Shown piece by piece: positions 28,630 to 29,652 of a stretch of 35,668 bases of DNA. The translations under genes were made by a program, and so were the position numbers. This stretch comes from a virus. Location of the stretch: the IMG/VR virus record IMGVR_UViG_3300004806_000007, positions 1-35,668 of that record; one strand, 5' to 3'. Each line of letters opens with the position of its first letter. Within the stretch, counting starts at the first letter, position 1. The notes below the pieces were generated by a model. It made no database searches and was not told the origin of the DNA. It was given only the letters and a program-made list of their open reading frames with translations.

Positions 28630-28704
28630 TTAAGCAAGTTCTTCAGCAGAAGGAATACGAACATACTCGTCAATTTCTTCATCGTAAAACCAGTAAGCAT
28701 CCAT
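28630..28704 (-). CDS. Very small acidic protein (24 aa)
   Basis: MDAYWFYDEEIDEYVRIPSA ending EELA, with AAAGG upstream. It is the first ORF after the leftward early promoter at 28748-28776. Strongly acidic and aromatic; small acidic leader proteins like this are known as DNA mimics or regulators in other phages, but nothing here proves that. Confidence 0.5.
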   Translation of the reverse strand: MDAYWFYDEEIDEYVRIPSAEELA

Positions 28705-28747
28705 GTATTTACCTTTATTTGTTATATGGCGTTATTGCCATGACTAG

Positions 28748-28776
28748 ATATTAAGCTATCTTAATACTAATGTCAA
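28748..28776 (-). promoter_or_regulatory. Leftward early promoter with embedded operator
   Basis: TTGACA (28776-28771), 17 bp, TATAAT-like TAATAT (28753-28748): a near-consensus sigma-70 promoter reading into the leftward operon. The spacer and -10 contain ATTAAGATAGCTTAAT (28764-28749), an inverted repeat related to the operators at 29671-29715 and 31777-31811, so it is probably repressed by the Cro-like protein. Confidence 0.75.
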
Positions 28777-28941
28777 ACTAGGGACAAACCCTAAATGTTG
28801 TTTTTTTAATTAACAATAGTTCTGACAAGGGTGGATAGCATTGGCTATTCAGTCCTGATCCATAGCTGTACCAGAGAAAATACCTTTATTAAGTTATGCA
28901 CAATTAGCTACCAATCCTTCACGGAGATAATGTTCAATCGA
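28777..28941. other. Intergenic stretch without a supported gene
   Basis: I see no ORF with a ribosome site. It contains a small inverted repeat around ATAGC-ATTG-GCTAT (28835-28850) and an A/T-rich block (28798-28815) just upstream of the leftward promoter, which could act as an UP element. Confidence 0.4.
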
Positions 28942-29061
28942 TCATACGTCTTGTTTACCACCGATTCCGCATGTCTTGTGCAGTACCCATTTAAGTCTGC
29001 GTGGCTTGCTCTGGGGTGTACAGAAGCCAATCTTTCTTGGGTGCGGGCGATTTAACCCCAT
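28942..29061 (-). CDS. Candidate small basic protein (39 aa)
   Basis: ATG 29061 has AGGGAG nine bases upstream. The product starts MGLNRPHPRKIGFCTPQSKP and continues RRLKWVLHKTCGIGGKQDV, basic with two cysteines. It lies downstream of the switch-like RNA at 29095-29245, in the same direction, so it may be the gene that RNA controls. Two other frames are also open here, so coding is uncertain. Confidence 0.3.
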   Translation of the reverse strand: MGLNRPHPRKIGFCTPQSKPRRLKWVLHKTCGIGGKQDV

Positions 29062-29094
29062 TTGATAACGCTCCCTGACGGAAGTCGTGACGCA

Positions 29095-29245
29095 ATAAAA
29101 AATCCGTTTTAGGGTATATCTTGTTGGCCGACCCCTTATTTACGGGGACATTCTTTGGTAAATCGCTTCCACGACTACTTACCAAAAAATCAAGATATAC
29201 GCTAAAACGGACTGATTTGTCGGCCAAGACAACAATTAAATTATA
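29095..29245 (-). ncRNA. Structured RNA with alternative helices (terminator/antiterminator-like)
   Basis: TATAAT at 29245-29240 would start a minus-strand RNA near 29233. Arm A (29211-29191) pairs with A' (29123-29103) in 20 of 21 positions and is followed at once by TTTTTT (29102-29097), an intrinsic terminator. Inside lie two hairpins (TTTGGTAA/TTACCAAA at 29154-29186 and CCCC/GGGG at 29132-29147). A 9-nt element TTGGCCGAC (29227-29219) is perfectly complementary to 29132-29124, next to A'. The two helices cross, and only 7 nt separate the 5' element from arm A, so they should exclude each other. A family match is not recognised. Confidence 0.55.
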
Positions 29246-29247
29246 CA

Positions 29248-29355
29248 CTAAAAAGAAAACCCACCCGTACTTTCGCAGAGGGGTGAGCCGTGTTGCAATT
29301 TAAGTCTTAACTTTGGACTACGTCTAGCCACTTAAGTAACTAGAAGGACATTATA
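29248..29355 (-). ncRNA. Putative small RNA, about 95 nt
   Basis: TATAAT (29355-29350) is followed about 60 bp later by an intrinsic terminator: CACCC (29285-29281) pairs with GGGTG (29266-29262), then GG and TTTTCTTTTT (29259-29250). No ORF with a ribosome site lies between. The -35 region is weak. The predicted RNA runs from about 29343 to 29250, directly upstream of the next RNA unit. Confidence 0.5.
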
Positions 29356-29427: not shown

Positions 29428-29652
29428 TCAGGGCTGCAATTCTGGCCATATCTCGTGCCAGTTTTTCGGAAACATACCTTTTCTTGTATATTTACCTTTT
29501 GATTGCTTTTCTAGCTGTGCGGCAAGAAACATTAGTTTGTCTGTTGGAACGCCATTGGTACGCCATTGTGCAATCGCCGCGGGACTTATCCCGCAAATCT
29601 TAGCTACTTTTGTCGTGCCGCCTAAAATATCAATAATTTCGCTATGTTTCAT
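29428..29652 (-). CDS. Cro-like helix-turn-helix repressor (74 aa)
   Basis: The start MKHSEIIDILGGTTKVAKIC followed by GISPAAIAQWRTNGVPTDKLMFLAAQLE is a Cro/YdaS-type helix-turn-helix: scaffold helix TTKVAKICGI, recognition helix SPAAIAQWRTNG-(V/I)P. The C-terminal part (KGKYTRKGMFPKNWHEIWPELQP) ends in WPEL as in Cro-like antitoxins. No protease domain is present. There is no ribosome site, and the likely transcription start coincides with the ATG, so the mRNA is probably leaderless. It should bind the GTTAAG repeats between itself and the ERF gene. Confidence 0.8.
   Translation of the reverse strand: MKHSEIIDILGGTTKVAKICGISPAAIAQWRTNGVPTDKLMFLAAQLEKQSKGKYTRKGMFPKNWHEIWPELQP

Follow-up and report, generated by a model that had tools for sequence, protein, structure and literature searches.

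The window, by which we mean the whole 35,668-nucleotide stretch of DNA analysed here, comes from a freshwater phage with an IMG/VR virus record. Its genes, among them a P22-like portal, Erf, SSB and a Cro/YdaS-type repressor, are those of a podovirus-like phage. The element under study, which we call RNA1, lies on the minus strand from 29245 to 29097, with the repressor gene on one side and leftward early genes on the other. Along this span lie a promoter, the 5' hairpin P1, a helix of 21 bp with a single mismatch (B:B') that is followed by U6, and a perfect 9-bp pairing (A:A'). The repressor gene is located upstream of RNA1 on the same strand, a position and orientation also found in relatives, and its terminator-like hairpin stops just short of the RNA1 -10 box. 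On the other side, the RNA1 unit is bounded downstream by the next promoter. In the direction of the minus strand, the features are:

29428..29652, minus strand: Cro/YdaS-type HTH repressor gene (Pfam YdaS_toxin 5.8e-9, P22_Cro 1.1e-8; PHROG repressor)
29250..29290, minus strand: hairpin of the repressor gene that resembles a terminator, CACCC..GGGTGGGTTTTCTTTTT, read by eye
29240..29245, minus strand: -10 box TATAAT of the RNA1 promoter, from the sequence, with no good -35 in the window
29217..29232, minus strand: P1, 5'-terminal hairpin TTGTC-[TTGGCC]-GACAA, from covariation and the full-length fold; 29232-29228 pairs with 29221-29217
29227-29219, minus strand: A (TTGGCCGAC), made of the 6-nt P1 loop (29227-29222, UUGGCC) and 3 nt of the P1 3' strand
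29211-29191, minus strand: B (TCCGTTTTAGCGTATATCTTG), 5' arm of the terminator helix, covarying with B'
29133..29190, minus strand: apical region with two hairpins (TTTTTTGGTAA..TTACCAAAGAA; CCCC..GGGG), from the MFE fold
29132-29124, minus strand: A' (GTCGGCCAA), directly 5' of B', the perfect complement of A and covarying with it
29123-29103, minus strand: B' (CAAGATATACCCTAAAACGGA), 3' arm of the terminator, from the sequence
29102-29097, minus strand: U6 tract, six T after B'; helix and T-run are kept in homologues
28827..29079 (ends approximate), minus strand: RNA2 type I, a second structured noncoding RNA conserved in 12 distinct homologues, no Rfam match
28748..28776, minus strand: next downstream promoter, TTGACA-17-TAATAT, overlapping the operator-like TTAAGCTATCTTAA (28751-28764)

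The operator-like sequence over this left early promoter has a related counterpart, TTAAGATGGCTTTA, before erf at about 29704. Directly past the left early promoter there is a 24-aa acidic ORF, MDAYWFYDEEIDEYVRIPSAEELA (28630-28704, minus strand). In relatives, the 28700-28770 stretch recurs in inverted orientation at a distance of a few kb. No tRNA or tmRNA was detected in eight relatives. A scan of genome contigs returned only a distant Lacticaseibacillus erf, and DNA searches of the relatives' elements against named phages gave no match.

A preliminary description had read at this locus a 21-bp helix with one mismatch running straight into TTTTTT, and this structure is present (29211-29191 / 29123-29103 / 29102-29097), with 21 positions in B:B' and a single C.C mismatch. 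The two hairpins said to be enclosed by the long helix were confirmed in the sequence and in the fold, as were the perfect 9-bp helix crossing it (29227-29219 / 29132-29124) and the 7 nt that separate A from B; the TATAAT box described ahead of the element lies at 29245-29240. The 5' element had been taken for a free strand, which proved wrong since A is the loop of hairpin P1 and shows a U-turn pattern. Neither A nor A' occurs a second time within the window, and in a search for trans targets, no identity or complementarity to RNA1 longer than 12 nt was found elsewhere in it. Rfam covariance models gave no match at gathering score over the whole window or over 28650-29300, a crude promoter scan listed no plus-strand consensus promoter over the element, and no paper describing the element was found in the open-licence literature.

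Relatives were gathered by the neighbouring Erf protein (80 loci), by two DNA patterns and later by a class II pattern. The erf relatives showed the same architecture upstream of erf, on the opposite strand, with a strongly diverged sequence. With a structural descriptor, 72 distinct element versions were detected in related IMG/VR phages. In a recount over all fetched loci (a helix of at least 17 bp plus a U-tract), the A:A' match was not required. It was still found upstream in 71 of the 72 distinct elements with a long helix and a T-run, and the sole element without it was an antisense reading of a real element. When the sequence was reversed as a control, 2.8 Mb yielded no elements. This indicates that the A:A' contact is not a selection artefact, and the element is not due to chance. 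The T-run after the helix, which the descriptor itself demanded, was also observed in independently folded homologues, while the apical region differed among homologues in its loop lengths and hairpins. In class II elements, linker and apical loop make up a second matching pair. The switch was also found in phages without the Erf/repressor neighbourhood, and each locus available completely or for the most part carried a single copy, with the exception of L167. In this locus there are two switches of different class and with a different A/loop code, one of them before an HNH-type gene.

Covariation was studied on the 57 distinct class I elements that could be aligned. At positions 1-7 of A:A', Watson-Crick pairs were found in 399/399 cells, with no G-U; 113 cells were compensatory and 16 distinct A sequences were represented. 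When the register of A:A' was slid, the paired fraction fell to about 0.2-0.3, and shuffling of the partners never attained the observed score. An alignment-free test gave cognate runs of 7.95 nt on average versus 4.8 for non-cognate ones (permutation p <= 5e-5). The two other helices behaved alike over the same 57 elements, B:B' having 1225/1254 standard cells, 132 compensatory, and P1 having 320/342 cells with standard pairs, 21 compensatory. Compensatory changes in homologous regions, by which the preliminary description was to be judged, were thus found in A:A', B:B' and P1.

Counted from the class I alignment, the terminator helix contains 139 minus-strand G.U cells versus 8 A.C cells. 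This indicates that the folding molecule is the minus-strand RNA and not a DNA palindrome or the plus strand. A cruciform, or an origin or recombination site as already named at the outset, would suit the large imperfect inverted repeat found at the element, the closeness of the element to the minimum of the cumulative GC skew and its place between divergent operons. However, the strand asymmetry of the wobbles disfavours such a DNA element, as do the T-run present on one side only, the fixed promoter spacing and the swaps between genomic contexts, and we hold it to be extremely unlikely. In relatives, the G-U wobbles of the terminator helix cluster at pairs 7, 12, 17 and 22 from the inner end, that is at every fifth pair.

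The -10 box, taken as the best promoter match, was located exactly 12 nt upstream of A in 60/71 homologues, and many homologues carry a TTGACA-N17-CATAAT promoter. As the -10 is fixed 12 nt before A, we expect transcription to start from the foot of P1, which puts the expected start of RNA1 in the window at about 29234-29232. Folding was done with a nearest-neighbour model, pseudoknots excluded. The minus-strand fold reached -57.8 kcal/mol compared with -34.6 +/- 4.2 for shuffles (z = -5.5, 0/200 as stable). For prefixes ending just after A', the mean probability of A:A' was 0.85 and that of P1 was 0.02. In the complete RNA1, by contrast, that of A:A' was 0.00 and that of P1 was 0.87, P1 and the terminator being formed and A' being mostly unpaired. 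The exceptions were six loci with a GTGAGAG loop (L093, L100, L102, L110, L114 and L125), where the probability of A:A' in the prefix was only 0.05-0.16 owing to competing alternative pairings. The crossing helix and the full terminator had been proposed to exclude each other, and the in-silico folds and the model geometry agree with this: A:A' cannot coexist with the full terminator since the linker is short and the helix is, by our own estimate from model geometry, about 60 Å long. In terms of equilibrium the terminator is favoured by far, meaning that antitermination must be kinetic.

We propose that RNA1 (~138 nt) is a transcriptional attenuator working as a sequential antiterminator/terminator switch, a reading to which we give a probability of roughly 0.7. 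RNA polymerase would start at the foot of P1, whose loop would display A in a U-turn. Once A' emerges from the polymerase, A would pair with it, either opening P1 or keeping the lower part of P1 as an H-type pseudoknot, and this pairing would tie the apical region, on its 3' side, to the 5' end of the RNA. At its base, the 21-25 bp terminator would then be unable to close in time, and the polymerase would continue into the payload. We infer transcription of RNA1, a regulated readthrough, an action in trans and the role of the payload. If A or A' were occupied, or if the polymerase waited long enough, B:B' would prevail, P1 would re-form and transcription would stop at U6; because the outcome must be kinetic, occupation of A or A' would favour termination. 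The likeliest occupier would be free RNA1, which bears both A and A', so that RNA1, by its dosage, would impose its own termination. It counts against the attenuator that the analysis identified neither an external signal nor a protein or an antisense promoter.

The small ORF at 28942..29061 (minus strand) had first been described as the gene following the element. We rejected it as the controlled gene: it is frameshifted or absent in close relatives, being cut to 23 aa in L002 and absent in L005, L007 and L024, and a second structured RNA, RNA2, lies there. RNA2 is apparently reached by readthrough from RNA1, as its position suggests. The consensus fold of type I alone is weak, but type II, found in relatives, has 84 predicted pairs with 1751/1758 standard cells and 94 compensatory ones, and for the structure of type I we rely mainly on its homology to type II, which covaries. 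This type I/II family of roughly 250-350 nt, for which there was no Rfam match, comes after the switch in the window, L038, L132, L068 and others.

The payload varies among relatives, where it can be a type I/II RNA, RF02932 or one of several other structured stretches that are unassigned; elsewhere it is the replication-type gene DUF1376, an HNH-like gene or a 74-aa ORF. The distance from the U-tract to the payload is short in most of them, leaving no room for another promoter. In the complete phage record MW202520, the payload is DUF1376 (PF07120), and the adjoining gene is annotated replication protein P. In L176, L180 and L188, some 12 nt lie between the class II element and the start codon of DUF1376, and in others the gap is also small; this is the proper place for an attenuator. 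The Rfam family RF02932 (Betaproteobacteria-1 RNA) was detected directly after the switch in L012 (3159-3034, minus strand), L072 (3419-3295, minus strand), L111 (11555-11680) and L116 (7193-7311). This placement suggests that the orphan RF02932 is phage-borne and under the control of an attenuator. In L105, L106, L117, L121 and L122, the switch precedes mutually unrelated long structured noncoding stretches, some of which lie within structural or terminase gene blocks.

Different phages carry RNA1 and RNA2 together as a recurrent unit that no promoter divides, as they would if both were one composite noncoding RNA in which RNA1 is the 5' domain and the U-tract is seldom used. Contrarily to what this would predict, the same RNA1 module also precedes protein genes and unrelated types of RNA2, and the T-run stays behind the helix in homologues, including the independently folded ones, making a composite RNA very improbable. 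The terminator/antiterminator architecture is strongly supported by the covariation of the two helices, the folding of the prefixes and the order promoter, switch, payload. In the overall interpretation given by the preliminary description, this architecture therefore stood, while the small ORF as follower and the free-strand 5' element had to be abandoned.

We looked at the A loop more closely. In 14/14 distinct class I loops, position 2 was U and position 4 a purine (N-U-N-R), and this invariant pattern is the U-turn pattern of antisense and target loops such as those of plasmids; some phage loops are exactly UUGGCG. Among 59 pairs of elements whose remaining sequence differed by no more than 12%, which are non-independent and amount by eye to perhaps eight events, A differed in 30. 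In none of the 30 was A changed at a single position; two or more differed each time, with A' altered to match. L100 and L104 have a different A, yet they agree at every one of the 70 other positions compared. These concerted jumps of A and A' are what selection for specificity would give and resemble plasmid incompatibility loops, although they are not proof of it.

It is this pattern of A/A' changes that points to a possible action of RNA1 in trans. One tentative extension, which we find possible but doubtful, is that RNA1 is a phage immunity or copy-control RNA: its terminated product would bind the nascent A loop and force termination, and the 6-7 nt loop code would set the specificity. 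If so, the code types would be RNA-encoded incompatibility groups gating a noncoding RNA or a replication gene. RNA1 could also be a stand-alone small RNA always ending at U6, with A and A' pairing between two molecules as a reciprocal kissing dimer, or else with a target in the host, and readthrough being incidental. Both A and A' are largely exposed in the folded RNA1 and, lying >60 Å apart in the model geometry, could meet in trans only; exact Watson-Crick pairing without G.U together with a U-turn loop fits an intermolecular contact, and the concerted jumps fit a selection of self versus non-self. Nevertheless, such an RNA would not need to keep A' just before B', the order that makes A:A' form first, and a payload is found close behind in almost every relative, including protein genes with the start codon just past the U-tract. 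We therefore regard the stand-alone RNA as unlikely, and the attenuator remains our preferred reading.

RNA1 would be an undescribed family of RNA switches, widespread in freshwater phages, standing ahead of replication-type genes in some of them and of structured RNAs, including the orphan RF02932, in others. The switch would give a handle on the timing with which these noncoding RNAs are produced, and the matched A/A' codes, a natural series set in near-identical backbones, lend themselves directly to tests of orthogonality.

With regard to what defines an attenuator, RNA1 has a GC-containing helix with a U-tract in its leader and a covarying alternative helix incompatible with the terminator, and by its position the sequence immediately downstream could be the controlled one. 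In the countertranscript-driven attenuator of pT181, the leader of a replicon gene forms a mutually exclusive antiterminator and intrinsic terminator (PMC4878617), and a U-turn requirement is cited for pIP501 in PMC7430163. Like these two systems, RNA1 combines a 5' hairpin bearing a recognition loop with an antiterminator that excludes an intrinsic terminator. However, the pT181 antiterminator sequesters the 5' arm of the terminator, whereas in RNA1 A pairs with A' beside the 3' arm and not with B. Moreover, pT181 is flipped by an antisense RNA from the opposite strand, whereas in the phage both partners belong to RNA1 itself, over which the crude scan listed no antisense promoter.

In the plasmid ColIb-P9, a pseudoknot controls the translation of repZ via a leader peptide. 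As in the Rep pseudoknots of the IncI-alpha, IncB and IncL/M plasmids (repZ in ColIb-P9), the ON state of RNA1 would be a hairpin loop paired downstream, and the phage loops include UUGGCG, the ColIb-P9 motif named in the title of reference 19 in PMC10724649. Unlike that of ColIb-P9, the phage pseudoknot would be wired to an intrinsic terminator; no conserved ORF for a leader peptide was found between the loop and the payload, and the payload in the window is an RNA. We filed RNA1 in neither family, since the defining features, the sequestered arm of pT181 and the leader peptide of ColIb-P9, are lacking.

The CI RNA of P4 causes premature termination of P4's own operon. RNA1 shares with the immunity RNAs of P4 (CI RNA), P1/P7 (c4) and N15, which are regulatory RNAs of phages or satellites, the complementarity to leader sequences (PMC7567579). 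It differs from the P4 type, a trans RNA with complementarity to two sites in the leader, in that neither a processed antisense RNA nor repeated target sites were seen, A and A' being present once each in the window. As for RF02932, it is one of several payloads and not the switch, the payload in the window being another RNA. Altogether, the best reading is that RNA1 is a new RNA family working like the pT181 and ColIb-P9 plasmid switches, and that it would join two known plasmid tricks, the U-turn loop pseudoknot and the attenuation by an intrinsic terminator, in one short RNA.
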